DNA of 35,968 nt from the NCBI RefSeq assembly GCF_000311785.1, contig NZ_HE978549.1, positions 3,476 to 39,443 of the forward strand, given 5' to 3'. The position numbers were made by a program, and so were the translations under genes. Below, piece after piece: positions 5,633-35,968 of the stretch (positions are counted from its first letter, which is position 1; the number at the start of each line of letters is the position of its first letter). Source of the stretch: Brevibacillus massiliensis (GTDB lineage: Bacteria; Bacillota; Bacilli; Brevibacillales; Brevibacillaceae). Under the pieces are notes generated by a model. That model did not search any database. It saw only the letters and a list, made by a program, of their open reading frames with translations, and had not been told where the DNA came from.

Positions 5633-8600
5633 TTATTTAAGGTCAATAACTGTACCCGTCTGGCTTTTGTGTTTATCTAAAATAAAGTTACCATATTCGT
5701 CTGCATCGTATACCCAGTAAAGTTTATTTCCTCTTTTTTCAAACACTTTATATGCAGAACCTCCATGTCCAGTTAAATCCTTGGACCACCAGTATTTTCC
5801 GTCAAAATATGCTTTAACCTTTTGTCCCGCAAAATTGTATGTCAACTCCCCTTTTGAATATGACTTTATATCCCATTTAGCAGTTACGTTCTTACTATTC
5901 TTTAGAGTACCTGTTGTTACAGCTGACATAGGGTCATTAAAATCAGGGACTAATAATGCATAACCTTCTACGTATAACCTGAATCCAAGTGGGTCACTTT
6001 CTATTCTTTGGAGAGTTTCAATTCTTGCAATCATCATGACTTTATCTTCTGGTATCATGGCATCAGAGCTTTTCATAATGTCTGCCTCAGCTATACCTGC
6101 TTTTCTCATCTGATTGCGAAGAATCTCAGCCTGATTAGCCCAATATTGTCTTTGATCATCAGTAGTTGCTTTCTGGTATTGCCATTTCATTTCATTTATT
6201 GTCCAGTTAGCAGCAATCTTTGTACTCCAGTGTCCACTCGGATCCACATACCTCAACGGATTATTCTCCACATACACATACCGATTCAAACTCAACGGAT
6301 TATCCACTTGCCCCTTATACGTATCCTCCGAGATAAACCGCCCCACACCCGGATCATAGTACCGGGCCCGCAGGTAATACAGCTTGGACTCGTTGTCGTA
6401 CATCTCACCCGTATACTTGAACGGATTGGACATGGCCTCCTGCTGCGAGACGATGCTGCCCCAGCTGTCGTACTCGTAGCGATTGAGCGTCTCCCCGTTC
6501 ACATCCGTGATCGCGACGACATCCCCGTGGCTGTTGTACAGGTAATAGCCCGACTTGTTGCTGGCCGCGTCTTTGCGGAACAAGAGCTGGTTGCCCCAGA
6601 TGTTCTGCGCGGTGACATTTCCCTTGTCGTCAAGTTCTTCGATGACCTTTCCGTTCAGGTAGACGTAGTGGGTGGTCAGGTTGTTTTCCTGTTTGGTCGC
6701 CCGCAGTCCGTTGGCATAATACCGGTATGTTGTAGAAATTCCCGACGGATTGGTAAATTCCTTCAAGCGCTCCAGGCTGTCAAACGAAAAGGTGGTGTTT
6801 CCGACCGGCTGATTGGCGGCTCCGCTGAAGGATTTCCGGTTTCCACGGTCGTCGTACCCGTAGGATGTATCCCCTGTCGGCGTCGTTTCTCCCCTGAGGC
6901 GGTCCACCTTGTCGTAGCGGTACGAGAAGACCGTGCCATTCCGATTGGTCGCGATGACATTTCCGAATTGGTACTCGTTCGTCTCCGTCCACAAGACAGA
7001 TGCATTCTGCCGGTGGCTCACTTCCCGCATCTCGCCAAAGGAGTCCAAACGCTGCTCCTGCTTGATGCCATTGGGATAGGACAGGGTTAGCTTCTCTCCG
7101 TCGAGGGAGACATTGTAATCGTAGGTGACGGTTCCCATCTGCGGACTGAATACCTGTTGGATTCGCTGGGCCGCATCGTAGGTATACCGTACCGGCGTGC
7201 CGTCCGGGTAGACCAATTCATCGATCAGGTCGTCGTCATCCTTATACTTGATCTGGTAGTAGCGCCCAAAGGAGTGAATGCCGCTCAGACGCTGGAAGGG
7301 ATCGTAGGTGTAGCGGAGCTCGCGGACGTTGGCTTGGCCGGAGCCGTTGCTGTCCGTCTCCGCCTTCAACAGCGACGTATTCGCGTAGTACTCCATTGTC
7401 TGTGTATTCAGCAGACTGCCTGCCGGATTTTTTACCTCGATGCGGGACACGTCGTAAAACGGCGTATATGTGTAGTGATGAGTGTTGCCGTCCTTGTCTC
7501 GATAGAGCTTGACATCTCCGGTCAGGTTGTAGGTGTAGGTCTCGGTCTTCTGTCCCGGGACATCCTCTTCGCTCAGCTTCCAGGACAGTCCGTTATAGGT
7601 GTAGCGTGTGGTCAGCGTGCCGTTTTCCTTCACCGTCTCCAGGTTTCCGAGCGAATCATAGCCGTACCGATAGGTTTGCCCCTCCGGATCTTTCAGGTAC
7701 ACCAGGCTGTTCTTCAGGTTATAGCGATAGTTCCAGACGCGATTTTCCCCCGTCTGATCGGTGACGACTTTTTCGACAAGCTGGCCAAAAGCATCGCGCC
7801 TGTAGGTGGTAACGAGCGTTTGGCTGCCATCCCTGGTGCGCGCTGCTTCTTTTTCCACCGTCTGATAACGGTCCGCATACGTAGTGGTAATGAGCCCGTT
7901 GGTGGCGGTCACTCTGACCGTATCCTGCGGCAAATCATGCGCGGCGTCCTTAAGGGCGTTGGCCCGTTCGTAATACGTGATGCCAACCGGATCAATCGTC
8001 TTCCACAGCGTCCCGTCTTCATTATAGACGTACTCCGTCCGCTGGTCGGCCCGGGCGTTGGGATAGCTTGCCTCCAATTGACGGCCGTTCGCTCGGTAGG
8101 CATTGTACAACAGGTGGCGGATACGGGTGGATCCCGGTGCCTTCTGGCCTTGGTATTCCACTTCGCCAAACGGCGTGAATTGGGTCAGGTATTCGGTGCC
8201 ATCCGGCATCAATTGGGTCACTTTCCGCGCACTGTCGTCGTACTTGTACTCGATCGTCCGCGCTTCTCCCTGGTTGGCAAACGACTCCGTGCGAAGGCGG
8301 CCAAGCAGGTCGTAATCGTAGCTGACCTCGCTTTGGTCAGGATACGTCTGTGAGGTGATGCGCCCCAGCGGATCGTAGGTGGTTTTTACCGTCACATCCG
8401 CAAACGTCCCCGGCGCGGTTTCCACCCTCATCTGGATATTTGTGGGATAGATTCCGTACGCATCGTACGACAGCATGTTTTGCGTCAAGGTTTTGGTGCT
8501 GGTGCCGTAGCTGGTTTCGGAAACAGAAGCGACCCGCTTATTCTCGTACGTGTAGGCGCGCTCTGTCCTCTCCGCTGCGGTCCCCTGCTCCGACGGATAA

Positions 8601-20924: not shown

Positions 20925-21491
20925 TTACTTGTAAGCGATGCCGTTTAACAACATCTCCATATAGGTTCGAATCAGCTCATCTTCCGGAACCGGGCCGTCA
21001 GGTTTGTACCACCTGTTGCTCCAATTGCACACGCCCAGAATGGCAAAGGTAACAAGATCGGCTCGCAGATCCGGACGGAACTCCCGGTTCTCTATTCCCT
21101 GTTCGATAATCTTCTGCAGATTTTTCCGAAATTCCCGCCGTTTTCTTCTGATGATCATGTAATTCTCTTCGTTAAGGTGGCGCAGCTCACGGTAGAAAAC
21201 CCTGGCCATCCGTCCTTGTGTGCGGATGTGTTTGATCAGCAGCGCTACGACCTCAAACATTTTTGTTTTCCAATCCTTGTCGGATTGAATCAGTATGTGC
21301 TCCTGCTTGACCAAAAGATCATCGATATACTGCAGTTGGATATCCATCAGCAATTGTTCTTTTGATTCGAAGTAATAGTAGAAGGTTCCTTTGGTAACGC
21401 CGAGCCTGTCGACAACGTCCTGAATGGAGGTTTGACTGAATCCTTTCAACTCAAACAAAGCAATGCTCTGTTCAATGATTTTATTCTTCAT
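20925..21491 (-). CDS. TetR-family transcriptional regulator
   Basis: 188 residues. N-terminal TetR helix-turn-helix: ALFELKGFSQTSIQDVVDRL, GVTKGTFYYYFESKEQLL. The C-terminal ligand domain is all-helical and ends GVCNWSNRWYKPDGPVPEDEL, a pattern common in TetR regulators of fatty-acid and acyl-CoA degradation (Bacillus FadR type). It lies directly downstream of the acyl-CoA operon and on the same strand, with a 184-base gap and its own promoter. It probably represses that operon and responds to an acyl-CoA; the ligand is not readable. Confidence 0.88.
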   Translation of the reverse strand: MKNKIIEQSIALFELKGFSQTSIQDVVDRLGVTKGTFYYYFESKEQLLMDIQLQYIDDLLVKQEHILIQSDKDWKTKMFEVVALLIKHIRTQGRMARVFYRELRHLNEENYMIIRRKRREFRKNLQKIIEQGIENREFRPDLRADLVTFAILGVCNWSNRWYKPDGPVPEDELIRTYMEMLLNGIAYK

Positions 21492-21527
21492 GAAATGGCG
21501 CCCCTTTCCCGAGACAGATAATTACGA

Positions 21528-21559
21528 CTATTATAATAGAAAGGCTTCATCCCCAACAA
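21528..21559 (-). promoter_or_regulatory. Candidate tetR promoter with palindromic -10
   Basis: On the minus strand TTGTTG (21554-21559) - 18 bases - TATAAT (21530-21535). The -10 lies in the perfect 12-bp palindrome CTATTATAATAG (21528-21539), a possible site of autoregulation. The gap 21492-21675 holds no other gene. Confidence 0.45.
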
Positions 21560-21675
21560 TTCCAACTAGAGCAGGTCACCAATTTTTATATGTACTTTCA
21601 GTAACTTCCTCGCCTCGCCGCTCACGCAAGAGAAATTCAGGTTCCAGCGTGATCAACTCGCGGTCGACAAAACGC

Positions 21676-22752
21676 CTAGAGTGCGTTTTTGAGCGTCAGT
21701 TCCCAAGCCTTTCGAATCAAGCTCCGGGCCAGATCACCCAATTGGGCAAACCGCTGGTCTTTGGTCTGGCCGTTTTTCCAACGAAAATAGATCTGCTGGC
21801 AAATCACCGCCCATTTGAAGTAGGAGAACGTCACATAAAAATGAATGCGGGTTACATCCCGCCCGCTCTTTTTGGCGTATCTCTCGATCAGCTGTACGCG
21901 CGTCATAAAGCCGGGCAGGACGGTTACCGGTGGAGTCCTCCTGTAGGCGAGCACCTGCAAGTCGTCTTCCTGGATCCAATAGCACAGCATACAGGCCAAA
22001 TCGGCCAGCGGATCTCCGATCGTCGTCATCTCCCAATCAAAAATCCCGATCATTTTCGTCAGATCATCGCTGTCGAACATGACGTTGTTCAACTTGTAAT
22101 CATAGTGAATAACCGTCGGTTCAGGCGAGATCGGCAGATGCTCCGTCAGCCACTTCTTCAGCTGCTCCACTCCCTCTGCCTGATCTGTTTTCGCCCGCTC
22201 GTATCTTTCGATCCATCCGTGCACTTGCCGCCGCATGAATCCTTCGGGATAGCCTATTTGTTCAAGGCCTGCCGCTTTGTAATCGACACGGTGAAGTTCT
22301 GCCAGCCGATCGATCATCACTTCCGAGATTTGCCGGCAAAGTGCGGCAGCAGAAGTGTGGTGCGCGGGGAATTGGGTATCGAGAACAATCCCGCGCCTTC
22401 GCTCCATGAGAAAAAAGGGGCTGCCGATCACACTGCGGTCATCACAGAAAACATATGGTTTCGGGGCAAGCGGAAAGACGGGATGAAGCCTGCTTAGTAT
22501 CTGGTACTCTCTCGCCATGTCGTGGGCTTTGGGCGCTACGGGACCGAGGGGAGGGCGGCGAAGCACCGCCTCCCACTCTCCAATCCGCAAGAGGTAGGTC
22601 AAATTGGAAGCTCCTGTGCCGAATTGTTCGATTTCCAGCGGCGACGAAACGGCAATATCCGTATTTTCCCGCAAGAATTTCTCCAGTCTATCGCGCTGCA
22701 GTTCTTCTCCTTTGCGGACAACAATCGTGTCACGGAACCTGTTTTTAGCCAT
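21676..22752 (-). CDS. Acyl-CoA-operon phosphotransferase (APH/choline-kinase-like fold)
   Basis: 358 residues from ATG 22752 (AAGGTGG five bases upstream). Kinase-like fold: N-lobe GTGASNLTYLLRIGEWEAVLRR, catalytic loop VIHYDYKLNNVMFD (HxDxxxxN) and metal-binding IFDWEMTTIGDPLADL. This subgroup is commonly encoded with acyl-CoA dehydrogenases, and is the same module fused to them in ACAD10/11, where it phosphorylates 4-hydroxyacyl substrates before dehydration. A similar role on a hydroxylated acyl-CoA is plausible here. It is the last gene of the operon, 17 bases after the thiolase. Confidence 0.88.
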   Translation of the reverse strand: MAKNRFRDTIVVRKGEELQRDRLEKFLRENTDIAVSSPLEIEQFGTGASNLTYLLRIGEWEAVLRRPPLGPVAPKAHDMAREYQILSRLHPVFPLAPKPYVFCDDRSVIGSPFFLMERRRGIVLDTQFPAHHTSAAALCRQISEVMIDRLAELHRVDYKAAGLEQIGYPEGFMRRQVHGWIERYERAKTDQAEGVEQLKKWLTEHLPISPEPTVIHYDYKLNNVMFDSDDLTKMIGIFDWEMTTIGDPLADLACMLCYWIQEDDLQVLAYRRTPPVTVLPGFMTRVQLIERYAKKSGRDVTRIHFYVTFSYFKWAVICQQIYFRWKNGQTKDQRFAQLGDLARSLIRKAWELTLKNAL

Positions 22753-22769
22753 AGGGACCACCTTGTCCG

Positions 22770-23942
22770 CTAATTTTCCCGTTCCAGAATCACCGCAATT
22801 CCTTGTCCGCCGCCGATGCATGCCGTCAACAGGGCGTAGCGTCCCGGCACCCGTCTCAGTTCGTAGACGGCTTTCGTGGCCAGGATCGCGCCGGTTGCCC
22901 CGAGCGGATGCCCGTGGGCAATCGCCCCGCCGTTTACATTTACCTTGTTCGGGTCCAGCTGAAGCTCCCGGTCACAGGCAATCACCTGGGCGGCAAAAGC
23001 CTCATTGATTTCGATTAGATCCATATCGTCCAAGGTCAGACCCGATTTCTGCAGCACTTTGCGGACGGCTGGCACCGGACCGATGCCCATGATATTCGGG
23101 TCGACTCCGGCCACCGCGCGGGAGCGAACGGTTGCGAACGGCTGCAAGCCCAGTTCCTTCGCTTTTTCCCGGGCCATGATGACCAGTGCGCAAGCTGCGT
23201 CGTTCAGCCCCGAGCTGTTCCCGGCAGTGACGCTGCCTCCCTCGACGAATGCCGGCGGGAGTTTGCCAAGGCCTTCCATGGTCGTCTGCGGCCGGGGATG
23301 CTCATCCTCGGCGAACAGGAAGGTTTCGCCTTTTCCCTTGGGGACCGAGACCGGCACGATCTGTTCGTCAAACCGTTTTTCTGCCATGGCATTGGCCATC
23401 TTCTGCTGGCTGGCCAGGGCAAACGCGTCCTGTTCTTCCCGGCTGATCCCATATTTTTTGACGAGGTTTTCCGCGGTGATTCCCATCGGAGGGTTGCCGA
23501 TTTCGCGCGGAGACAGCTGGGATTTTCTGAATGGGGGCGGCTGCACGCTGTACAGTTTGTCAGGCTTGCTCATCAGATACGGTGCCTGGCTGTAGCTTTC
23601 GATCCCTCCGGCGACATAGATGTCGCCATCCCCCGACTCGACCGCCTGGGCAGCCAAAGTGATGGCATTCAATCCCGATCCGCACTGCCGGTCAACCGTC
23701 AAACCGGGAATCTCCAATGACAACCCCGTCTTCAGTGCCGACAAGCGGGCGATGTTCCCTCCGCCGCTAAGCACGTTCCCCATGATGACATCGTCGATCA
23801 TATCTGCAGTCACCCGAGCCCGGTTCATCGCTTCCTTAATTACGGTCGCCCCGTAGTAGTGCGCAGGAAGCGTCGCCAACGCTCCCCCGTTTCTGGCAAT
23901 CGGCGTTCGCACCGCGGCAACAATGACAGCATCACGCTTCAT
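22770..23942 (-). CDS. Thiolase (acetyl-CoA acyltransferase)
   Basis: 390 residues, normal thiolase length. It cleaves 3-ketoacyl-CoA to acetyl-CoA in the last beta-oxidation step (or condenses two acetyl-CoA). Nucleophilic Cys87 in [11 protein letters not shown]; His in [16 protein letters not shown] near residue 346; second Cys in CIGGGQG near 376. N-terminus [18 protein letters not shown] is standard. The ATG at 23942 overlaps the end of the open frame through the deleted SDR. The FadA-like degradative role follows from the operon. Confidence 0.92.
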
Positions 23943-23978
23943 CCTGTTTCCCCCTTCCGTTTTTCCGGTCTGCTCTTC

Positions 23979-24154
23979 TTACATGGCATGGCTTCCGCCA
24001 TCGACGACCAGCACATGCCCAGTTTGCGCGAACAAACCACCACATTTGCTCCGGCTTCGGCAAGGGCCTCCGCTATTTGTTCGCCCAAGCCCCTGCCCCC
24101 GCCGGTAACGATCGCGGTCCTGCCGCCAAGGTCAAACAGTTCCCGAATGTGCAT
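23979..24154 (-). pseudogene. Short-chain dehydrogenase with most of the gene deleted
   Basis: The first 46 codons are a normal SDR N-terminus with the NAD(P) motif TGGGRGLG ([18 protein letters not shown]). They join near 24020 directly to the last 13 codons of an SDR in another frame, [13 protein letters not shown] and TAA (23979-23981). Roughly 200 codons, with the Ser-Tyr-Lys catalytic residues, are gone. In the N-terminal frame translation runs on to 23939. It stood between the acyl-CoA dehydrogenase and thiolase genes, so it was probably the operon's second alcohol or hydroxyacyl dehydrogenase. Confidence 0.85.
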
Positions 24155-24169
24155 ACTCTCCCTCCTCCT

Positions 24170-25369
24170 TTACGACCGCAATTCCGCCTTTGCGATGGCG
24201 GCGCGATGGACTTCATCCGGCCCGTCGGCGAGGCGCAGCGTCCGCGTTTTCGCCCACATCGCAGCCAGCGGAAAGTCTTCGCTCACGCCGGCGCCGCCAT
24301 GTGCCTGAATGGCCCTATCCAGCACCCGCAAGGCCACATTGGGAGCCACCACTTTGATCATCGCGATTTCTTTTTTGGCCTGTTTGTTCCCGACAGTATC
24401 CATCATGTAGGCGGCCTTCAGCGTCAAGAGACGGGCCTGTTCGATTTCGATCCGGGAATCTGCGATCCACTCCCGGACCACCCCCTGATCTGCCAGGGGC
24501 CTGCCGAAAGCAACCCGGCTTTTTGCCCGCTTCACCATCAATTCAAGCGCCCGCTCGGCTGCCCCGATCAGCCGCATGCAGTGGTGGATGCGTCGCGGTC
24601 CCAGCCGTCCCTGGGCGATGGCAAATCCTTTGCCTTCGCCCCACATCATGTTGCCGGCAGGCACCCGGACGTTGTCAAAGGTAATTTCCGCATGGCCGTG
24701 GGGCGCGTGGTCGTAGCCAAATACCGGCAGCATCCGTTCAATCTTGACGCCTGGCGTGTCCAGCGGCACGAGGATCATCGACTGCTGCTCATGCTTGGGG
24801 GCGGCAGAATCGTTCTTCCCCATCACGATGGCGATCTTGCAGCGGGGATCGCCGGCACCCGACGACCACCACTTGCGGCCGTTGATCACGTAGTGGTCGC
24901 CGTCCCGCACAATGGCCGCTTCGATATTGGTCGCGTCGGATGAAGCCACGGTCGGCTCCGTCATGGAAAAACAGGAGCGGATTTCGCCCCGAAGCAGCGG
25001 GACCAGCCACTGCTCCTGCTGTTCTTTCGTCCCGTAGCGCACCAGCGTCTCCATGTTGCCCGTGTCCGGAGCGCTGCAGTTAAACGCCTCCGGCCCGATC
25101 ATCGAACGGCCCATAATCTCACACAGCGGCGCATACTCCAGGTTGGTCAGCCCCGCTCCCCATTCGCTCTCGGGCAAAAACAGATTCCACAGTCCGGCCG
25201 CCTTCGCTTTTGCCTTCATCTCTTCCATGACAGGCGGGCTTTGCCAGCGGCTCGGCGCTTCATTCAACTGCTGCTCATACGTTTTTTCATTGGGGTAAAC
25301 GACTTCTTCCATAAACTGAGTCAGACGTTCCTGCAGAGCTTTGCTCTTGTCACTATGGTCAAAATTCAT
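24170..25369 (-). CDS. Acyl-CoA dehydrogenase (ACAD10/11-like)
   Basis: 399 residues from ATG 25369 (GGGGG run seven bases upstream). FAD enzyme that desaturates acyl-CoA to enoyl-CoA. Landmarks: [39 protein letters not shown] (FAD/substrate), [47 protein letters not shown], and the C-terminal [15 protein letters not shown]. This subgroup acts on long, branched or modified acyl chains. It pairs with an APH-like protein in the same operon, as in the ACAD10/11 fusions. Confidence 0.92.
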
Positions 25370-25404
25370 CACATTTCCCCCATATTTCTTCACTGGCCAA
25401 ATCG

Positions 25405-26157
25405 TCAGATTCCGCCGCGCACGTACAGGACTTGGCCGGTAATAAAGCTGGACTCCTCCGATACGAGAAAGAGGACGGCGTTGGCAATGTCAATCGGCTT
25501 GCCTGTTCTCCCCAGCAGCGACCGCTCTGCCGCCGCCCGTTTAAACGCTTCAAAATCGCTACCGACCCGCTCTGCCGTCGCCTTGGTCATGTCTGTTTCA
25601 ATGAACCCGGGGGCGATCGCATTTACGTTGATGTTGAATTTGCCAAGTTCGATCGCCAGTGTCCTGGTGAACCCTTGCAAGCCGGCCTTTGCCGTGGCGT
25701 AATTGAGCTGGCCGCGATTGCCCAGCGCTGAGGTGGAGCTGAGATTGACGATCTTGCCGTACCGCTGCGGCACCATGTATCGCTGAGCCGCCTGGGACGC
25801 GTAGAAAGAGCCTTTCAGATGCACGTTCATCACGGTATCCCAATCCTCATCCGTCATTTTGTGAACCAGATTGTCGCGGATCACCCCGGCATTATTGACC
25901 AGGATGTCAAGACGGCCAAACGTGTCGACGGCTTTCTGCACCATCTCCTCGACCGACTGCCGCTCGGTGATGTTGCACGGCACGGCAATCGCTTCGCCGC
26001 CGGACGCTTTGATCGCCGCTGCCGTTGCTTCGCAGGCGTCCGCCCGTATGTCGGTCACGACGACCTTAGCCCCTTCTTCGGCCAGCCGCCCGGCAGTTGC
26101 CGCTCCAATGCCCCGCCCTGATCCCGTAATAATAGCTACCCGATCTTTTACTCTCAT
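25405..26157 (-). CDS. SDR-family 3-oxoacyl reductase / hydroxyacyl-CoA dehydrogenase (FabG-like)
   Basis: 250 residues from ATG 26157 (GGGAG seven bases upstream; an ATG at 26163 is also possible). Classical SDR: cofactor [12 protein letters not shown], catalytic Ser in [16 protein letters not shown] (Tyr-x3-Lys), and C-terminal [12 protein letters not shown]. An Asp in VVTDIRAD after the second strand favours NAD over NADP. In this operon it more likely oxidises 3-hydroxyacyl-CoA to ketoacyl-CoA than works in fatty-acid synthesis. Confidence 0.9.
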
Positions 26158-26205
26158 ACTCATTCTCCCTTCCGTTTCACATCCCGAAATCCGGGACATG
26201 TCGTT

Positions 26206-26628
26206 TTACTGCTCTGCCGGAATCGCGTACTCGGCATGTCCCCGGACTGCCTTATTTCCTTCTTGCGTGGCAGCCCATACTTCACAGGAAACGATCTGCC
26301 TGCCCGCCTCGATCCGGGTCTCAAGCACCCGGCCTTCGCAGGTGAGCTCATCTCCGGGGCGGACCATTCCCGTAAACCGGACACCGAATATTCGCAGTTC
26401 TCCTTCCATGCCGATGACATCCGTCATGAGTTGGCCGACAAACGCCATGGTCAGCATGCCATGGGCGATGACACCGCCAAGTCCCGCCTCGAGGGCAAAC
26501 TCTTCCACGGTGTGAATCGGGTTGAAATCCCCGGAAGCCCCGGAGTACATGACCAGCTGTGTTTTGGTAATGGGCGGTTTCGTCAACGGCCCGATTGTCT
26601 CGCCCGATTGAAACAGTTTGTTTCCCAT
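26206..26628 (-). CDS. MaoC-type enoyl-CoA hydratase, catalytic hot-dog subunit
   Basis: 140 residues from ATG 26628 (AGGAGG nine bases upstream; GTG 26631 is the alternative). Hydratase-2 motif YSGASGDFNPIHTVEEFA with the catalytic Asp and His, then GGVIAHGMLTMAF. It adds water to trans-2-enoyl-CoA, giving the (R)-3-hydroxyacyl-CoA. The upstream gene encodes the matching non-catalytic half, so the active enzyme is probably a heterodimer, as in HadAB-type pairs. Confidence 0.88.
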   Translation of the reverse strand: MGNKLFQSGETIGPLTKPPITKTQLVMYSGASGDFNPIHTVEEFALEAGLGGVIAHGMLTMAFVGQLMTDVIGMEGELRIFGVRFTGMVRPGDELTCEGRVLETRIEAGRQIVSCEVWAATQEGNKAVRGHAEYAIPAEQ

Positions 26629-26641
26629 CACCTTCCCCCTC

Positions 26642-27079
26642 CTATCCCCGGTAGATCGTTGTCATCTTCGCGATGAAAACGGTTTCGTCGGATTCGTTGA
26701 CCCCTTTTTGCTCGTGGACCAAAAATGTCATCCGCCCCAGCTTTCCTTCCTTGTCGTAGACATCCACCAATTTCGTCGAGCAGTAGAGCACGTCGCCGGC
26801 GCATATTGGCTGGAAGTACCGGAACTCCTGCTCGCCGTGAATCAACCCTTCGCGCTTTATTTTGAAATCAGGGATGGCACCGTAGTCGAACGTGCGGCTA
26901 AATGTCGGCGGTGCGACGATGCGTCCGTAACGGGTGGTCTTCGCGTACTCCTCGTCGCGGTATATCGGATTCGGATCTCCGATCGCATCGGCAAATTTGC
27001 GGATCGCCCCTTTTTCCACTTCGTTTTTGACAGGCTTCGACTCCATTCCGACAAACCGTTGAAACAACTCTGCGCTCAT
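26642..27079 (-). CDS. MaoC-like N-terminal hot-dog subunit (FAS1-dehydratase-like)
   Basis: 145 residues from ATG 27079 (GGGGG upstream), the first gene of the operon. Motifs FADAIGDPNPIYRDEEYA and RIVAPPTFSRTF, HGEQEFRYFQPICAGDVL. The position equivalent to the catalytic His is Tyr (NPIY), so this is the substrate-binding half of a two-subunit hydratase whose catalytic half is the next gene, 10 bases away. Confidence 0.88.
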   Translation of the reverse strand: MSAELFQRFVGMESKPVKNEVEKGAIRKFADAIGDPNPIYRDEEYAKTTRYGRIVAPPTFSRTFDYGAIPDFKIKREGLIHGEQEFRYFQPICAGDVLYCSTKLVDVYDKEGKLGRMTFLVHEQKGVNESDETVFIAKMTTIYRG

Positions 27080-27103
27080 TGAATCCCCCATTCCTCGGAA
27101 ATT

Positions 27104-27119
27104 AACTGACCGGTTGGTA
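27104..27119. promoter_or_regulatory. ACCGGT-centred dyad, candidate TetR operator
   Basis: AACTGACCGGTTGGTA, an imperfect dyad centred on ACCGGT, lies between the -10 and the first gene of the acyl-CoA operon. Many TetR regulators bind GACCGGTC-type sites, and a TetR gene closes the operon. Support is positional. Confidence 0.35.
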
Positions 27120-27141
27120 TGTAGCTGCATTAGTCATTGAT

Positions 27142-28398: not shown

Positions 28399-29682
28399 CT
28401 ATGGTCCGAGCAAACCGGGCAGCCACATGGAGATTTGCGGGACGTAGGTGATCAGCAGCAAATCTGCCACGAGCAGCACGATAAAGGGGAAGATCCCGCG
28501 AATCAGATGTTCGAGCGAAATGTTGGCGATCCCCTGCACGATAAACAGATCGAGGCCGACCGGCGGGGTGATTAGTCCCAGGGCGAGGTTGACCACCATC
28601 ACCAATCCAAAGAAGACGGGGTCGATTCCCGCTGTTTTGATCAATGGCAGGAATAAAGGTGTTAAAATCGTGATGGCGGCAGACGCGTTTAAGAAACAGC
28701 CGGCGATGAACAGAATGATGTTGATCAACAGCAGTATCACGTACTTGTTGGTTGTGACGCCCATGATGAGAGCGGCCAATTGCCCGGGAATCTGTTCTGC
28801 GGTCAGCAGCCAGCCAAAAAGATTGGCTGCGGCGATGATGAATACAATCATCGCTGTCGTTATGCCGGCGCTCATCAAAGCATCGGGCAGCTGCTTCCAC
28901 TTTACATCTCTGTAGACAAACATCCCGACGAACAGGGCATAGGCGGCCGCAATCGCTGCGGACTCTGTCGGGGTGAACACTCCCGAACGTATCCCCACGA
29001 TGATGATGACGGGAAGCAGAAGCGCCCAGACCCCTTCTTTCAGGGCTTTTCGCAAGGTAGTCAGTTCAAAAGCGCCCCCTTGACGGTCATACCCCCTTTT
29101 CTTCGCCGTGAAGTAGTTCATACCCATGATCGATAAACCGATCAAGATTCCCGGAATGATGCCGGCTGTGAACAAAGCGCCGATGGATACCCCGGCTGTC
29201 ACACCGTAGACGATCATGGGAATGCTGGGCGGAATCACCACGGCGATCGTTCCGGCTGTCGCAACCGTAGACGCGGCAAAAGCCTTGTCATACCCCTTTT
29301 TTTCCATGACAGGAATCATCATTTTTCCGACAGCCGCCGTATCGGCAGCCCCTGAACCGGAGATTCCGGCAAAAAACATGCTGGCCAGCGTAGAGACTTG
29401 GGCCAGTCCCCCTTTCAGCCACCCCACGCAGGCGAATGCGACATTGGTAATCCGCTGGGCCATTGACCCCGCCATCATCAGCTCTCCGGCCAGCATAAAA
29501 AAGGGAATCGCCAGCAGCGGAAACGAATCTACCGCGGTAAAGAATCGCTGCGCAACGACGGTTAACGGGATCGGCACGGAACTGAGCCCGATCCCGCCAA
29601 TAGCCGCCAAAGACAGGGAGATGGCGATAGGCACACCGATTCCCATGCAGACAAATAACAGAAAAATAACCGGCAAAACCAT
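28399..29682 (-). CDS. dctM: TRAP transporter large permease (DctM)
   Basis: 427 residues, about 12 membrane segments, no soluble domain. The ion-driven translocation subunit of a TRAP carboxylate transporter. Family blocks: FPLLAIPFFMLAGELM, ASMFFAGISGSGAADTAAVG, STVATAGTIAVVIPPSIPMI, VFTPTESAAIAAAYA and NLALGLITPPVGLDLF. ATG 29682 follows AGAGGAGGGG. Last gene of the eight-gene operon, 13 bases after dctQ. Confidence 0.95.
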   Translation of the reverse strand: MVLPVIFLLFVCMGIGVPIAISLSLAAIGGIGLSSVPIPLTVVAQRFFTAVDSFPLLAIPFFMLAGELMMAGSMAQRITNVAFACVGWLKGGLAQVSTLASMFFAGISGSGAADTAAVGKMMIPVMEKKGYDKAFAASTVATAGTIAVVIPPSIPMIVYGVTAGVSIGALFTAGIIPGILIGLSIMGMNYFTAKKRGYDRQGGAFELTTLRKALKEGVWALLLPVIIIVGIRSGVFTPTESAAIAAAYALFVGMFVYRDVKWKQLPDALMSAGITTAMIVFIIAAANLFGWLLTAEQIPGQLAALIMGVTTNKYVILLLINIILFIAGCFLNASAAITILTPLFLPLIKTAGIDPVFFGLVMVVNLALGLITPPVGLDLFIVQGIANISLEHLIRGIFPFIVLLVADLLLITYVPQISMWLPGLLGP

Positions 29683-29695
29683 CCGAACCCCTCCT

Positions 29696-30289
29696 CTATC
29701 CGATTTTTTCCGCTATCGCAGGCTCTTCTTTTCTTCCTTCATCAACAGCTTCCCCTGACCTCTCCTTCCGATGCGAATGGACCGCCTCCGCAAGTAATGC
29801 AAACGAATGGAGCAAGCAAACGGCAGAACAGAGCAAGAGAGAGGCGTACATCACCGACATATTGAGATGCAGGGAAGGAGATAACTGCCCGTTGGTTATG
29901 ACTGCCATCTCAATTCCTTTGACCAATAGAACACCGAAAAACACGGAATTAAGGACTTCGACCGCGAGACTGCATCCTCGCTGCCACCGGGAGGGAAAGA
30001 ATTTCGTCACGATTTCCACTTGCGCATGGCCTTTGCTTTTGTATACCACGCCGATACCCAAAAATACGATCCAGATGAAGAGATAGCGGATGGCCTCTTC
30101 CAGCCAGGGGAAATTCAGCGCGGATAGATTGGCCTTGGGCAGCACACTTGTGAAAAAGGAGCTTTGCAGGATGTACCGCGAGAACACTTGGTAGATCGTA
30201 GCCAGAAAGGCCACCCCCATAAAAGTCACCACAACGTATCGTGACAGCTTGTCGACCCATTGGCTCAGCCTGTTTACCGATGCTCTCAT
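29696..30289 (-). CDS. dctQ: TRAP transporter small permease (DctQ)
   Basis: 197 residues with four membrane segments. The motif FLGIGVVYKSKGHAQVEIV (related to the GxxxxxxxGxHxxVD-type DctQ signature) and LNSVFFGVLLVKG are seen, and the C-terminus is charged and cytoplasmic. It forms the membrane complex with DctM. ATG 30289 has GGGAGG upstream. The protein is slightly longer than usual at both ends. Confidence 0.88.
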   Translation of the reverse strand: MRASVNRLSQWVDKLSRYVVVTFMGVAFLATIYQVFSRYILQSSFFTSVLPKANLSALNFPWLEEAIRYLFIWIVFLGIGVVYKSKGHAQVEIVTKFFPSRWQRGCSLAVEVLNSVFFGVLLVKGIEMAVITNGQLSPSLHLNMSVMYASLLLCSAVCLLHSFALLAEAVHSHRKERSGEAVDEGRKEEPAIAEKIG

Positions 30290-30337
30290 GTGAAAACCTC
30301 CCTTGGAGAAAGTCAGGAAGGGCGGAGCCTTCCCCTG

Positions 30338-31357
30338 TCAGTTCGTGTTTCTGATTTTTTCAATGAGGTCCTTGCCAATGGAATCCTGCATCTCCAGGTA
30401 AACGGGTTCCACCGCTTTGCGGAAGGAGTCCAGATCCGGATGTTCCTCCACCGTCATGCCATCCGCTTTTAACTGCTGCAAAAACTTCTCTTCGGATTCT
30501 TGGGAGACTTGCCGTTCATAGGCTCCCGCTTCTTTGGCCGCCTCTTTTACCGCCTGCTGCAGATCGGCAGGCAGCTGCTCCTGGGCCGCCTTGCTCATCA
30601 GGAAAATGGCGGCGTCGTAGGTATGGGCGTTCAGCGTCAAGTACTTTTGCACTTCATGAAATTTGTTCGTCGCGATTTGGGCCAAGGGATTTTCCTGTCC
30701 GTCCACGACTTTTTGCTCCATGGCGGTGTACAGTTCGCCGAAGGGGATCGGAGTCGGTGTTGCGCCCAGCGCATGAACAAAGGAGATGTAGGCGGGCGAC
30801 TCCTGTACGCGCAGCTTTAGCCCTTTTGCATCAGCCGCGGTCTTGATCGGCCTGACATTGTTTGTCAGATGGCGGTACCCGTTTTCCCAGAACGCCAAAT
30901 TCACGATCCCTTTTTGCAGCAGGTCGTTTGACAATTCCTGTCCGATCTTTCCATCGAGAACTTTTATCGCCTGCTCCCGATCACGGAACAGATAAGGCAG
31001 GCTGAGCACGTTTAATTTGGGGGCGAAGTTGGCGACGGGAGCAACCGAGCCGATGTGGAACTGAATGGTGCCTAATTGCAAGCCTTCGATTTGGTCGCGG
31101 CCGTTTCCAAGCTGGCTGCTGGGAAAAATGTCTATCTGGATCCTTCCCTTTGACTTCTCCGCGACGATCTGTTTAAATTTCTCCGCCCCCAGCTGATAGG
31201 GGTGTTCTCCTCCCTGGAGATGCCCCAACTTAAAGACAAACTCCGGCCCCGCGGAAGCGGCGATTGCCTGGTCAGAGGCCGCTTGCGGACCGCCGCCGCA
31301 GCCTGCGATGACGAAGATCATGCTCATCAAAAGCATTCTGATCGTTACTCTCCCCAT
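30338..31357 (-). CDS. dctP: TRAP transporter solute-binding lipoprotein (DctP)
   Basis: 339 residues. Lipoprotein signal with lipobox VIAGC (Cys about 20), so it is anchored outside the membrane as usual for Gram-positive TRAP systems. DctP blocks: FKLGHLQGGEHPYQLGAEKF, IQIDIFPSSQLGNGRDQIEG, LSLPYLFRD, and the carboxylate-binding Arg region LKLRVQESPAY with ALGATPTPIPFGELYTAM, VDGQENP. It binds organic acids. The operon suggests a 2-hydroxy acid, possibly sulfolactate. ATG 31357 follows AAAGGGGG. Confidence 0.94.
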   Translation of the reverse strand: MGRVTIRMLLMSMIFVIAGCGGGPQAASDQAIAASAGPEFVFKLGHLQGGEHPYQLGAEKFKQIVAEKSKGRIQIDIFPSSQLGNGRDQIEGLQLGTIQFHIGSVAPVANFAPKLNVLSLPYLFRDREQAIKVLDGKIGQELSNDLLQKGIVNLAFWENGYRHLTNNVRPIKTAADAKGLKLRVQESPAYISFVHALGATPTPIPFGELYTAMEQKVVDGQENPLAQIATNKFHEVQKYLTLNAHTYDAAIFLMSKAAQEQLPADLQQAVKEAAKEAGAYERQVSQESEEKFLQQLKADGMTVEEHPDLDSFRKAVEPVYLEMQDSIGKDLIEKIRNTN

Positions 31358-31369
31358 CTTGATCCCCCT

Positions 31370-32452
31370 TTAAAGTTGATCACGTGAAAGCAGCAGCTTT
31401 TTGGGAAACGTCACTTTGAGCTCTTTTCCCAAAGCGGCCAATTCCTTTTCTACCTCAGGCGGCAGCCGGATTCCCTTTGATACCCGTTCTGCACGCTCCT
31501 TTGCCCTGCGCTCGCCGGGAAACAGGATTTCTTTCACCCCGGGCATCCGCGGAACCGCTTTCATCTCTTGCAGCAGGACGCTCATCAGATGGGTAAAACG
31601 CTCCAGAGGCATAAATTTCTCCACGTCAAGCAGCAGGAAAAAGTGGCCCACATTCGCCTGCCCGCCGTCTTCGTTGTACAGGTTCTGGACATGCGGCCCA
31701 AAAGCAGCCCCGGACAAAACCCCTGTCAGCACTTCGACGGCAAGGGAAAGAGCGCAGCCCTTGGCCCCGCCTACAGGCAGGACAGCGCCGGCCAGTGCCT
31801 CTTCTGGGTCTTCGGTTTCCTCTCCGCGAGCATTGATCGCCCACCCTTTGGGGATGGGTTGTCCCTGTTTGGCGGCCAGAATGATTTTCCCCCTGGCGAC
31901 GACGCTGGTCGACATGTCAATCATCACCGGCGCCTCTGTTCCCGTGGGGAATCCGAAAGCGATCGGATTGGTCCCGAAGAATGCCCTCGCCCCTCCCCAC
32001 GGGGGGATTCCCGGCGGAGAATTGGTGAACACCATCGCAGCCAGCCCCTGGTCACATGCCATCTGACAGTAATAGGAAGCGGCCCCGAAATGATTGCTGC
32101 CGCGGACCGCGACGGCTGCCGCTCCGGTCTCCTTGGCGATCGACATTCCCTGCCTGCAGGCATGAACGGAGACGATTGGCCCCAGTCCGTTGTCCCCGTC
32201 AACCAGCAAGACGGACTCCCCCGTTTTTTTCATGGCAATCGCAGGGTTTGCGTGAATTCTCCCTTCCTTCATCCGTTTCGCATAGATGGGCAGCCGGCTG
32301 ATGCCATGGCTGTCGGTGCCCTCCAAATCAGCCCGAATCAGCACATCTGCCGCGACGGAAGCGTCTTCCCTGTTTACTCCCAGCCGCTCGAATACGAACC
32401 TGCAAAACCTTCTTAATTCTGCCGCAGCATATGTCATCGTTCGTTCACTCAC
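31370..32452 (-). CDS. Ldh-family (malate/L-lactate/sulfolactate type) NAD-dependent dehydrogenase
   Basis: 360 residues from GTG 32452 (ATG 32437 is a good alternative). The Ldh_2 family is unrelated to classical LDH. Motifs: ADLEGTDSHGISRLPIYAKR, catalytic-His block VRGSNHFGAASYYC, FTNSPPGIPPWGG, FFGTNPIAFGFP, and KGCALSLAVEVLTG. Members oxidise (R/S)-2-hydroxyacids, including ComC, (R)-sulfolactate dehydrogenase. The start overlaps the end of the GntR gene. It forms a pair with the D-2-hydroxyacid dehydrogenase of the same operon, which could supply opposite stereospecificity. Confidence 0.9.
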   Translation of the reverse strand: MSERTMTYAAAELRRFCRFVFERLGVNREDASVAADVLIRADLEGTDSHGISRLPIYAKRMKEGRIHANPAIAMKKTGESVLLVDGDNGLGPIVSVHACRQGMSIAKETGAAAVAVRGSNHFGAASYYCQMACDQGLAAMVFTNSPPGIPPWGGARAFFGTNPIAFGFPTGTEAPVMIDMSTSVVARGKIILAAKQGQPIPKGWAINARGEETEDPEEALAGAVLPVGGAKGCALSLAVEVLTGVLSGAAFGPHVQNLYNEDGGQANVGHFFLLLDVEKFMPLERFTHLMSVLLQEMKAVPRMPGVKEILFPGERRAKERAERVSKGIRLPPEVEKELAALGKELKVTFPKKLLLSRDQL

Positions 32453-33155
32453 GTTCGATTTGTTTTTGACGAATGATCGATTTTTCTACGCTGTTTAAAT
32501 GATCCAGCATCAGCTGTTTGGCTGTGTCTGCGTCTCGCAAAATGATGGAATCGACGATTTTTCCGTGTTCTTTGATCGATTGTGCGGCCCGGTCCGGAAT
32601 CCGGATCGACTCATTCCGCGCTTCGCCGAGCAGGTCGATGAGATGCAGCATAATGCGGTGCAGAACCGAATTCCCGGACATGCGGGTCAAAGCGAGATGA
32701 AACTTGTGGTCCAGCCGGGCCAGTGCCGCATAATCTCCTGCCTTGAGCGCCCGTCTGCTGTCGGCCAACATATGGGTCAACTCCGCTTCGCAAGCAGAAT
32801 CCACATGTTTGATGGCCCATTCGACCGCTTGCGTCTCCAATACCTTGCGAATCGCAAACAGCTCGATGATATGGTCATGCTTGACAAAAAAAGCCGACGT
32901 GATCTTGGCAAGCTGGGTATCGGCGTCGGCGACAAAGACGCCGTTTCCGTGCTTGATGTTCAGGTAGCCTTGCGCGGCCAGTATTTTAAATGATTCCCGG
33001 ATCGTGTTCCTGCTGACATTCATCAGCTGGGCCAATTCCCGTTCGCCCGGAATCCGTTCACCGGGGGCAAACTTTCCTTCGTATATCAAATTTTTGAGAT
33101 AGTCGACGACGGTGTCTGAGATATTCCTGCGATCTACCCGAAACGATTCAAACAT
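32445..33155 (-). CDS. GntR-family regulator (FadR/FCD subfamily)
   Basis: 236 residues from ATG 33155 (AGGTGAG upstream); longer in-frame starts lack a ribosome site. Winged helix at about 10-75: KFAPGERIPGERELAQLMNV, SRNTIRESFKILAAQGYL, KHGNGVFVAD. The FCD ligand domain carries metal-type residues (LDHKFHLAL, DxxFHxxL). It lies inside the operon it presumably controls, between the two dehydrogenase genes. It probably responds to the transported acid. Confidence 0.92.
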   Translation of the reverse strand: MFESFRVDRRNISDTVVDYLKNLIYEGKFAPGERIPGERELAQLMNVSRNTIRESFKILAAQGYLNIKHGNGVFVADADTQLAKITSAFFVKHDHIIELFAIRKVLETQAVEWAIKHVDSACEAELTHMLADSRRALKAGDYAALARLDHKFHLALTRMSGNSVLHRIMLHLIDLLGEARNESIRIPDRAAQSIKEHGKIVDSIILRDADTAKQLMLDHLNSVEKSIIRQKQIERE

Positions 33156-33175
33156 GTTCTCACCTGTATTCTCCT

Positions 33176-34123
33176 TTACCGAACCTGACAGACGCTTGGC
33201 TCTCCCCGCAGTACCCTCCCTATCTCCTCGGCGATCAAGATAGCAGTCCTCGTCTGTGATTCTTCCGTTACACCTGCAATATGCGGGGTGATGGCCACAT
33301 TTTCGCAATGCAGCAGCGGATTGGCAGGGTCGGCAGGTTCTTTTTCCAACACGTCCAGAACGGCACCGGAAATCGTTTGCTCCGTCACTGCCGCAAGCAA
33401 AGCGGCTTCGTCTATAATGCCCCCCCGGGAGGTATTGATGAGGTATGCCGCTTGTTTCATTTGCTGAAATTCTCGCGTGGAAAACATCGATTTGGTCTGG
33501 GGCGTCAATGGAACGTGGATGCTGATGTAATCGGATGTCTGCAGAAGATCAGCGAATGAGACAAGTCTTATCCCTGTCTCGGCGGCGGGAAAATCATGCG
33601 GCATGACAAGGGGATCATACCCGATCACCTGCATGCCAAAAGCCAGCGCCCTTTTCGCGACGCGGTGGGCGATCTCGCCCATTCCGACCAAACCGACTGT
33701 TTTTCCATACAATTCCATCCCGGCAAACCGCTTGCGGTCCCAGTTTCCCGCTTTGACATCCCTATCCGCCGCATGCAGGGGGCGGTTTGCCGCCAGCATC
33801 GCCGCCATCACGTATTCCGCCACGGAAATGGCATTGGCATTCCTCGCGTACAGCACTTTTACTTGGCGGGCATCAGCGCAGTCCAGATCGATATTATCCA
33901 GTCCGACGCCAAGCCGGCCGATGACTTTTACTTTTGATCCGGCCTGCAGCAGAGCGCGATCCACCCTTGTTTGATTTCGCACGATCAGCGCGTCTGCATC
34001 CCTCGCTTTTTGCAAAAGCCGGGCTTCATCGCTCCACAGCGTCTGATCGTAGTCCGCCTCGGCGTATTCCCTGATTCTTTCAAGCCCTTCCGGCCAGATA
34101 AACTCCGTTATCAACACTTTCAC
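33176..34123 (-). CDS. D-isomer-specific 2-hydroxyacid dehydrogenase (SerA/SlcC-like)
   Basis: 315 residues from GTG 34123 (GGGGTGG six bases upstream; an ATG at 34138 is possible). NAD-dependent. Rossmann motif TVGLVGMGEIAHRVAKRALA; catalytic Arg in LINTSRGGIIDE, Glu in LDVLEKEPADP, His in ITPHIAGVTEES. It lacks the regulatory domains of long SerA, so it is a catabolic type. In sulfolactate clusters this position holds SlcC, (S)-sulfolactate dehydrogenase. Together with the Ldh-family enzyme it could convert either enantiomer through the 2-keto acid. Substrate inferred. Confidence 0.9.
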   Translation of the reverse strand: MKVLITEFIWPEGLERIREYAEADYDQTLWSDEARLLQKARDADALIVRNQTRVDRALLQAGSKVKVIGRLGVGLDNIDLDCADARQVKVLYARNANAISVAEYVMAAMLAANRPLHAADRDVKAGNWDRKRFAGMELYGKTVGLVGMGEIAHRVAKRALAFGMQVIGYDPLVMPHDFPAAETGIRLVSFADLLQTSDYISIHVPLTPQTKSMFSTREFQQMKQAAYLINTSRGGIIDEAALLAAVTEQTISGAVLDVLEKEPADPANPLLHCENVAITPHIAGVTEESQTRTAILIAEEIGRVLRGEPSVCQVR

Positions 34124-34145
34124 AGGAAGCCACCCCATCTTGGCT

Positions 34146-34174
34146 GTGAGGCAAGGGGTCCCGCCTTGCCTCAC
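34146..34174. other. 11-bp perfect intercistronic hairpin
   Basis: GTGAGGCAAGG (34146-34156) and CCTTGCCTCAC (34164-34174) around a 7-base loop, in the 80-base gap between the lyase stop and the dehydrogenase start. No T-tract. It probably sets message stability and lowers expression of downstream genes relative to the lyase pair. Confidence 0.6.
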
Positions 34175-34203
34175 GACATTTGGCAACGGTTTTGACGATA
34201 GGA

Positions 34204-35379
34204 CTATATGCTGACGCCCACGCGATGGATCGCAAATCCGGTCTGCTCGTGCAGGATTTCGCTCTTCGTCAATTTCCCGCTGCAGGTTTCCAGCACTTCT
34301 TCGTAGATGAGTTCCCCGGCTTGTTCGATCGTCAGCTCATCCCGGAAGATGCCGCTCAGATCCAGCTCCATGGTGTCTTTCATCAAGGCAAAGGATTCGC
34401 TGTTGCCGGTGATTTTGATCGTCGGCATGATGGGGTGTGAAATCGTATGTCCTCCGCCTGTGCTGAAGACGAGGATTTGCGCGCCTGCAGCCGCAATGCC
34501 CGTAATCGATTCGCTGCCGTGGCCGGGCGTGTACATGACGTAGACACCCGGGTCTTTTTGCGTGCATTCCTCCGCGTATTCCAACCCGTTGATGATCGGG
34601 GCCGATCCTGACTTCATGTATGCGCCAAGCGATTTTTCTTCGATCGTGCTGAGTCCGCCCAGGATGTTGTCGCCGGTCGGCTGCGAACCCCGGATGTCTT
34701 CGCCGCTCGCAAGCGCCCTGCGCTCCAAATGCTCGATGTAGCCGACGATTTTCTCTCCAATCTCAGGGGAGACGGAACGCTGCCTGATGTATTCTTCTGC
34801 CCCCATCAGTTCCATGACTTCCGCCAAAACGGAGCGGCCGCCTTGGGCGATGATTTTGTCGGAGCAGACCCCCAGGGCCACATTGGAGCCAATGCCGGAG
34901 CTGGTGTCGGACGTGCCGCAGTTTAATCCGAAGAGCAGATTGGAGACGCTGACCAACTCCCTTTTTTGCTTGGACAATTCGCGTTTGATGTACAGGGCTT
35001 TTCGCGTCGCTTCCGCCGTCGCCTCAATCGCCCCGCCGGCCCGCCTGATGTTGACGACCTCAACCGGCTTTCCTGTCTTGGCGATCTCGGCGGCGATATC
35101 CTCCGCCGTACATCCTTCTTCCCGGAAGTGATCGATCACCACGACCCCGCCGACATTTGGGTTTTTCCCCATGCCGACCAAGGTTTTAAACGTCATACGC
35201 AGGTCCGGCCTCACCTGGCAGCGGCCCAGCGGGTGGGTGATCGCGACAGCTCCGCTGATGGTGGCGGCCACGCGTTCGGCTGTGGAGTTCGCATAAATCG
35301 TGCCGGACAGGATCAGTATGGTGTTGCGAATCCCGACCGACCCATTCGGACGGATATATCCCCAAAAACGGTCACTCAT
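34204..35379 (-). CDS. UxaA-family hydro-/sulfo-lyase large subunit (SuyB-like)
   Basis: 391 residues. The C-terminal catalytic portion of the altronate/galactarate dehydratase superfamily as a separate subunit. Starts FWGYIRPNGSVGIRN. Cys-containing blocks are GRCQVRPDL, EEGCTAEDI, FGLNCGTSDTSSGI and EECTQKDPG. It ends with TPGHGSESITGIAAAGAQIL, FSTGGGHT and IKITGNSESFALM. Split small/large pairs of about 106 and 391 residues occur in (2R)-sulfolactate sulfo-lyase SuyAB and in related sugar-acid dehydratases. Neighbours (two hydroxyacid dehydrogenases, TRAP) favour sulfolactate or a similar 3-substituted lactate. ATG is one base after the SAF gene stop, with AAGGAGG inside that gene. Confidence 0.85.
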   Translation of the reverse strand: MSDRFWGYIRPNGSVGIRNTILILSGTIYANSTAERVAATISGAVAITHPLGRCQVRPDLRMTFKTLVGMGKNPNVGGVVVIDHFREEGCTAEDIAAEIAKTGKPVEVVNIRRAGGAIEATAEATRKALYIKRELSKQKRELVSVSNLLFGLNCGTSDTSSGIGSNVALGVCSDKIIAQGGRSVLAEVMELMGAEEYIRQRSVSPEIGEKIVGYIEHLERRALASGEDIRGSQPTGDNILGGLSTIEEKSLGAYMKSGSAPIINGLEYAEECTQKDPGVYVMYTPGHGSESITGIAAAGAQILVFSTGGGHTISHPIMPTIKITGNSESFALMKDTMELDLSGIFRDELTIEQAGELIYEEVLETCSGKLTKSEILHEQTGFAIHRVGVSI

Positions 35380-35380
35380 C

Positions 35381-35701
35381 TCAAAGCGCCTCCTTTGCCG
35401 TGGCCACCTGGTACAGATCTCCGCGGCCGCGGTTGCTTTCGATATTGTGGATGTGGACGTGATCGCCGACCTGGATATCTGTCAACGCCGTTCCGATGCC
35501 GAGGCCGTATTTCCAGATCGCGTCGCCCTTGCGAATCGGGCGAACGGCGATCTTATGCCCGTAGGGAATATCTTTCAGAATCTCAATGGATTGGATCGCT
35601 CCGTCAAGCTCAATTTCCACCACCCGCCCTTTTGCCATATTCCTGCTGATGACGGTTCCGGTGTTGTCCTTTGGACTGATCACGTGAATCTCTCTTGCCA
35701 T
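35381..35701 (-). CDS. SAF-domain small subunit of UxaA-family lyase (SuyA-like)
   Basis: 106 residues. The SAF (AFP-like) domain occupies about 1-75 (AREIHVISPKDNTGTVISR, IPYGHKIAVRPI), followed by KGDAIWKYGLGIGTALTDIQ and GDHVHIHN, the hallmark of UxaA N-terminal domains. First gene of the leftward operon, with AGGAGG before ATG 35701. It forms the lyase with the next gene; length and split match SuyA. Confidence 0.87.
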   Translation of the reverse strand: MAREIHVISPKDNTGTVISRNMAKGRVVEIELDGAIQSIEILKDIPYGHKIAVRPIRKGDAIWKYGLGIGTALTDIQVGDHVHIHNIESNRGRGDLYQVATAKEAL

Positions 35702-35735
35702 GCCAAGGCCTCCTTTATTGTTTTTCGTATGCAGT

Positions 35736-35767
35736 GGTTGGAGTTGCGATGGTCAAATGCTCCAACC
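35736..35767. promoter_or_regulatory. 8-bp inverted repeat in the operon leader
   Basis: GGTTGGAG (35736-35743) and CTCCAACC (35760-35767), perfect arms 16 bases apart, 35 bases upstream of the SAF gene. Likely an operator (GntR or LysR) or a leader hairpin. Confidence 0.45.
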
Positions 35768-35820
35768 AATTTTGCCTGAGCCTATTAAAACACCGCCGTT
35801 TTGATCAGACAATAGATTTT

Positions 35821-35871
35821 GAATATTTTGATTTATTGAAATATTCGATAGGACAAATTGGGATTCCCAAT
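35821..35871. promoter_or_regulatory. Two dyads in front of the LysR-type gene
   Basis: GAATATTT-N10-AAATATTC (35821-35846) has the T-N11-A form expected of a LysR box. ATTGGGATTCCCAAT (35857-35871) is a second perfect dyad. Both lie in the 226-base gap between the divergent LysR-type gene and the SAF gene. No gene is seen in 35702-35927. Confidence 0.5.
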
Positions 35872-35927
35872 CATCACGATCCCTCTTCCTGTGTTATTGT
35901 TACAAAAAAAGGCAGGGTGATTTGGCA

Positions 35928-35968
35928 GTGAACCTCGACCATTTGAAAGTTTTTTATGTCGCGGCGAT
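35928..35968 (+). CDS. LysR-type regulator, first 13 codons only (cut by window edge)
   Basis: GTG 35928 with AGGGTGA upstream reads VNLDHLKVFYVAA, the standard first helix of LysR-type regulators (MNLxxLxxFxxVA). Only this stub is in the window. It is divergent from the lyase operon, the usual arrangement of a LysR activator and its target. Confidence 0.65.
   Translation, partial: MNLDHLKVFYVAA

Follow-up and report, generated by a model that had tools for sequence, protein, structure and literature searches.

A candidate sulfolactate operon in Brevibacillus massiliensis with a large lyase subunit from a sister clade of SuyB

Can Brevibacillus massiliensis use sulfolactate, a sulfur compound of bacterial spores that is also an end product of the breakdown of plant sulfosugars? 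The question is raised by eight genes in a 35,968-nucleotide stretch of its 5.06-Mb genome (the window; contig 15, bases 3476-39443). An earlier note, made from the letters of the window, had claimed the presence of UxaA-type small and large subunits, a SerA-like dehydrogenase, an Ldh-family dehydrogenase, a GntR regulator, and a TRAP transporter, and had read them as a sulfolactate operon. All of these genes were found, on the minus strand between positions 28399 and 35701, and our results support that reading. The large subunit is a sister of SuyB and does not group with the sugar-acid dehydratases, a grouping that the earlier note had named as refuting, and it shows the same loss of cysteines as SuyB. 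Judging from sequence, we consider it quite probable that the eight genes form an operon for sulfolactate use. The type of pathway is already known; what is new is a candidate member with a lyase from what is apparently an uncharacterised sister branch of the known SuyB proteins. The genes and their surroundings are as follows.

35929..35968, plus strand: 5' end of a LysR-family regulator gene (start read; the remainder matches the LysR helix-turn-helix and substrate-binding domains)
35702..35928, no strand: LysR-suyA intergenic region, likely control region (gene layout)
35381..35701, minus strand: SuyA-like small subunit, SAF domain, 106 amino acids (Pfam, 3k3s match)
34204..35379, minus strand: SuyB-like large subunit, candidate sulfo-lyase, GD_AH domains, 391 amino acids (Pfam, cysteine pattern, trees)
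33176..34138, minus strand: SlcC-like 2-hydroxyacid dehydrogenase (start at 34138 or 34123)
32445..33155, minus strand: GntR/FCD-family regulator, 236 amino acids from the start at 33155 (Pfam, orthologues)
31370..32452, minus strand: ComC-like Ldh_2-family dehydrogenase, 360 amino acids (Pfam, best-scoring model)
30338..31357, minus strand: DctP, TRAP solute-binding protein (families, structure matches)
29696..30289, minus strand: DctQ, TRAP small permease (Pfam)
28399..29682, minus strand: DctM, TRAP large permease (families)

The genes are packed from 35701 down to 28399 and are transcribed in the order small subunit, large subunit, 2-hydroxyacid dehydrogenase, GntR/FCD regulator, Ldh_2 dehydrogenase, DctP, DctQ, and DctM. 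Because the gaps between them measure only 1 to about 80 bases and the ComC-like gene overlaps that of GntR by 8 bases, they likely form a single transcription unit. Comparison with orthologues favors the start of the SlcC-like gene at 34138 (or 34123) over 34186 and that of the GntR gene at 33155 over 33308. Each protein exceeds the Pfam cut-off of its stated family. The small subunit barely passes that of SAF (21.3 bits, cut-off 21); it also matches the altronate hydrolase chain 3k3s at an E value of 3e-12 and is 73-76% identical to its counterparts adjoining orthologous large subunits. Separate genes for an SAF small subunit and a GD_AH large subunit thus lie side by side, as expected of SuyAB, and all three parts of a TRAP transporter are present together.

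We propose that DctPQM would import the anionic substrate and that the SuyAB-type pair would split (R)-sulfolactate by elimination into sulfite and pyruvate. The SlcC-like and ComC-like enzymes would turn (S)- into (R)-sulfolactate via sulfopyruvate, a two-dehydrogenase route that was proposed for Chromohalobacter (PMC9594981). Expression may be controlled by two regulators, the GntR encoded within the operon and the LysR encoded divergently from it, and sulfite would leave the cell by an exporter encoded elsewhere in the genome or be assimilated.

Four cysteines are conserved throughout the UxaA/GarD family except in SuyAB, and they have been proposed to be iron ligands (PMC6336799). In the large subunit of the window (the window protein) three of them are replaced, by Y29, R53, and E87, and C154 alone is kept. 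The same three are lost in all reference SuyB proteins, which have Gly-Arg at the second site in common with the window protein and are about 36-40% identical to it. These references were assigned from gene context and species, and they come from the hps cluster of Cupriavidus pinatubonensis (L009), the suyA-suyB-exporter cluster of Paracoccus versutus (L011), Methylobacterium (L012), and an hpsN-SDR-suyAB-comC-exporter cluster (L092).

A different reading is that the pair is a sugar-acid dehydratase of the altronate, galactarate, arabinonate, or fuconate type, with dehydrogenases acting on sugar acids or their keto-deoxy products and a TRAP transporter importing an aldonate such as erythronate. 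The Pfam domains are the same, the best NCBIfam match is galactarate dehydratase TIGR03248 (138.9 bits, below the cut-off of 730.85), and homologues of the TRAP binding protein have been reported with erythronate or pantoate. The genome also encodes two further large subunits of this family, dehydratase-type paralogues that are 43% identical to the window protein. Whereas these keep all four cysteines, the window protein has lost three, and genes for a sugar-acid aldolase, a kinase, or FAH are absent from its operon. The two paralogue loci (L005 687-6459 and L006 1852-10652) differ in their surroundings: one has FAH-, SDR-, and aldehyde dehydrogenase-like genes and the other TRAP and alcohol dehydrogenase-like genes. 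Both probably belong to sugar-acid pathways.

The trees also argue against a dehydratase. One scan of named genomes with the clade alignment gave 62 loci, and the five nearest named relatives are all from Bacillaceae. In a tree of 61 rows, the window protein falls into a clade (support 100/99) with members from Bacillota, Chloroflexota, Nitrospinota, Acidobacteriota, Bacteroidota, and haloarchaea. This clade is the sister of SuyB, with a support of 98/91, or 98/94 when the longest rows were removed, and UxaA, GarD, and the two paralogues fall outside the group that both form. The approximately unbiased (AU) test rejects placing the window clade with the paralogues (p 0.0153) or with other dehydratase-like rows (p 0.0147). 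The cysteine pattern agrees with the tree, yet it stems from the same alignment. No relative was found among viral contigs, and plasmid-borne haloarchaeal members of the clade carry only the annotation 'UxaA family hydrolase' in the public records examined.

The surroundings of the relatives are informative as well. Of the 39 genomes in the order, only one more is a carrier (G034; large subunit 88% identical). It repeats the entire operon, including the TRAP genes, with a TauE gene directly after DctM and a PF03601 gene close by. Halalkalibacter oceani keeps the order SuyA-SuyB-SlcC-GntR-ComC and adds a PF03601 exporter and a divergent LysR gene, and Salirhabdus euzebyi has the same set with GntR at another place. 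As the order recurs in these genomes, the grouping is not due to chance. Exporter genes were found at all six nearest Bacillota loci (L021-L026), at most haloarchaeal loci, and at 30 of 60 clade loci overall, one by a weak match (L038). This count serves as a guide: eight clade loci went into the profiles, which were built in this work, and the set includes short loci and a few near-duplicates. Pfam confirmed all 10 exporter proteins submitted. At dehydratase-type control loci, the profiles found no exporter (0/12), which is a further point against a sugar-acid dehydratase, and we consider that explanation very improbable.

Other relatives lie in different settings. Haloarchaeal loci add Ldh_2 and SerA-like genes, and two of them (L015 and L083) also have HpsN/HpsO-like genes. 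Loci of Chloroflexota and Halanaerobiaceae have LarA, transaldolase-like, or aldehyde dehydrogenase genes. Both with the HpsN/HpsO-like genes and with the latter set, sulfolactate is the expected intermediate (PMC9594981), and the separate settings converge on this compound. Sulfolactate use is thus supported by the sister position to SuyB, the loss of cysteines, the SlcC- and ComC-like genes, the exporters beside the nearest orthologues and their absence from the 12 control loci, and the settings of the other relatives.

It is also conceivable that the clade is a distinct sulfo-lyase with another sulfonated hydroxy acid as its main substrate, for example a dicarboxylate made by succinate dehydrogenase (Sdh)-like and fumarase-like enzymes encoded beside several members. 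The window clade is separate from the reference SuyB proteins, and several members have neighbors that would fit. Sdh-like and two-part fumarase-like genes lie beside SuyAB-type genes at L022 (14000-18491), L024 (11509-16007), L025 (12290-16745), and L026 (12442-16858), and haloarchaeal L007 and L016 have SdhAB and ArgH-like genes there. Such neighbors in several separate lineages hint that a sulfonated dicarboxylate is also a substrate. On the other hand, the window operon contains no Sdh or fumarase genes, and other clade members adjoin the HpsN/HpsO-like or sulfo-TAL-like genes with which sulfolactate is expected (PMC9594981). We therefore regard a different main substrate as unlikely.

Homologues of the LarA-type nickel racemase adjoin the large subunit at loci where SlcC is absent (L029 11295-12620, L036 8360-9646, and L040 4200-5495). 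They are candidate sulfolactate racemases that would replace the two-dehydrogenase route; the one beside L029 scores as a malate racemase, which would agree with a dicarboxylate. At haloarchaeal L018, L019, L059-L068, L072, and L077, SuyAB, ComC, SerA-like, and PF03601 genes are grouped with those for sugar ABC transporters, a Gfo6-like sugar dehydrogenase, a mandelate-racemase-family dehydratase, a DHDPS-family aldolase, and an aldehyde dehydrogenase. These sets are candidates for an archaeal sulfosugar pathway of the Entner-Doudoroff type. In members from Nitrospinota, Acidobacteriota, and Bacteroidota, the large-subunit gene is followed by one for a protein of about 190-230 amino acids (L042-L054, with L044 at 7618-8274; L036 11112-11726; L039 4334-5020). 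The L044 and L036 copies have no Pfam match, and the L044 copy has no NCBIfam match.

Of the two dehydrogenases of the window operon, the SlcC-like one shares 41% identity with SlcC of Methylobacterium. In a quick tree it joins that protein and not SerA (Shimodaira-Hasegawa-like approximate likelihood ratio test [SH-aLRT] value of 92), and the haloarchaeal and Variovorax proteins fall elsewhere. For the ComC-like protein, the L-sulfolactate dehydrogenase model NF040650 is the best of all models, and a tree gave no clear placement.

Several points weigh against sulfolactate use. The score of the ComC-like protein with NF040650 is 273.6 bits, compared to a curated equivalog cut-off of 500; a haloarchaeal ComC-like protein adjoining SuyAB and TauE likewise stays below it, at 340 bits. 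In the tree, the window clade is placed beside the reference SuyB group and not inside it, the long stems carry some risk of long-branch artifacts, and a literature search found no published assay for any member of the clade. The nearest solved structures of DctP belong to the group reported with pantoate or erythronate, with ligands that were mostly co-purified; this kinship neither favors nor rules out sulfolactate as a ligand. Exporters were absent by profile from the Nitrospinota clade loci, and the profile search found no sulfite exporter in the window or its flank. The earlier note had already reported this absence for the window and had suggested looking next to the LysR gene; the exporter that the window locus lacks adjoins the orthologous operons of the nearest relatives. 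Elsewhere, the genome has one PF03601 gene and four TauE genes. A move of the exporter to one of these places was considered and rejected: comparison with the exporters at the G034 locus gave 37% identity for the PF03601 protein and 27% for the best TauE protein, so that none of them is a clear relocated orthologue.

The LysR gene diverges from the operon, starts at 35929, and runs past the edge of the window. Just to the right of the window it is split by 1474 unread bases (contig 39444-40917; L004 1445-2918), with CGCGGCGAT on both sides of the unread stretch. An insertion that duplicated 9 bases of its target would leave such a pattern, but an assembly gap or a masked stretch would fit as well. 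LysR orthologues hold the same position at L021-L024, and the interruption may have altered the control of the operon in this strain. A promoter and terminator scan gave no more matches than in shuffled sequences, with no promoter-like site above chance in 35702..35928.

Is the operon linked to spores? In B. subtilis, sulfolactate is reported to make up about 5% of the spore dry weight (PMC517825). ComB- and ComA-type genes adjoin each other in the B. massiliensis genome (contig C11:89911-91358; L146 and L149), and Spo0A is also encoded, so that this bacterium probably makes spore sulfolactate itself. The spore link drawn in the earlier note is therefore plausible, but it is not specific. All 39 genomes of the order have ComA but only 2 of the 39 have the window-type large subunit, and ComA is missing from all six of the other lyase carriers in Bacillota, which means that the two distributions are uncoupled. 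A dedicated system for recycling spore sulfolactate was rejected on these counts; recycling by this bacterium is possible, though not specifically supported. The presence of a complete candidate pathway together with ComA and ComB in one spore-former allows one to ask whether sulfolactate is reclaimed on germination or taken from others. The sister clade of SuyB, whose members range from Bacillota to haloarchaea and have exporters and candidate alternative racemases beside them, would also broaden the range known for C3-sulfonate degradation.

Elsewhere in the window, positions 20925-27130 of the minus strand hold a TetR-like gene and thiolase-, acyl-CoA dehydrogenase-, SDR-, and MaoC-like genes. 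Judged by eye only, this is an acyl-CoA degradation cluster that is unrelated to the sulfolactate operon.

How does the operon compare with known systems? It shares the domain family with the UxaA/GarD-type dehydratases, among which the two paralogues also share the two-gene architecture; these enzymes differ in keeping the four cysteines, in falling outside the group of SuyB and the window clade, and in having no exporter nearby. With ComA/ComB (yitCD type) it shares the metabolite, and both genes are in the same genome, but they serve synthesis and not breakdown, lie on another contig, and are distributed differently from the lyase. Published predictions based on annotation had foreseen this kind of system, with SuyAB in sulfo-TAL clusters of Chloroflexi (PMC9594981), in Halorubrum (PMC10468875), in peatland Acidobacteria (PMC6018796), and in the spore-former Thermanaeromonas (PMC9826295). 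The Chloroflexota members of the clade, which are 60-66% identical to the window protein and lie with transaldolase-like, aldehyde dehydrogenase, and LarA genes, are probably the enzymes of the sulfo-TAL prediction. Unlike those clusters, the window has SlcC- and ComC-like genes in place of LarA and no sulfoglycolysis genes. The SuyAB systems with SlcC/ComC of Paracoccus and Chromohalobacter salexigens (SuyAB also in Cupriavidus pinatubonensis) differ from the window in its TRAP importer, its internal GntR and divergent LysR genes, and the lack of an exporter at the locus. They resemble it in the two-subunit SAF and GD_AH lyase, the loss of cysteines, the two dehydrogenase families, the exporters at orthologous loci, and the sister position in the tree.

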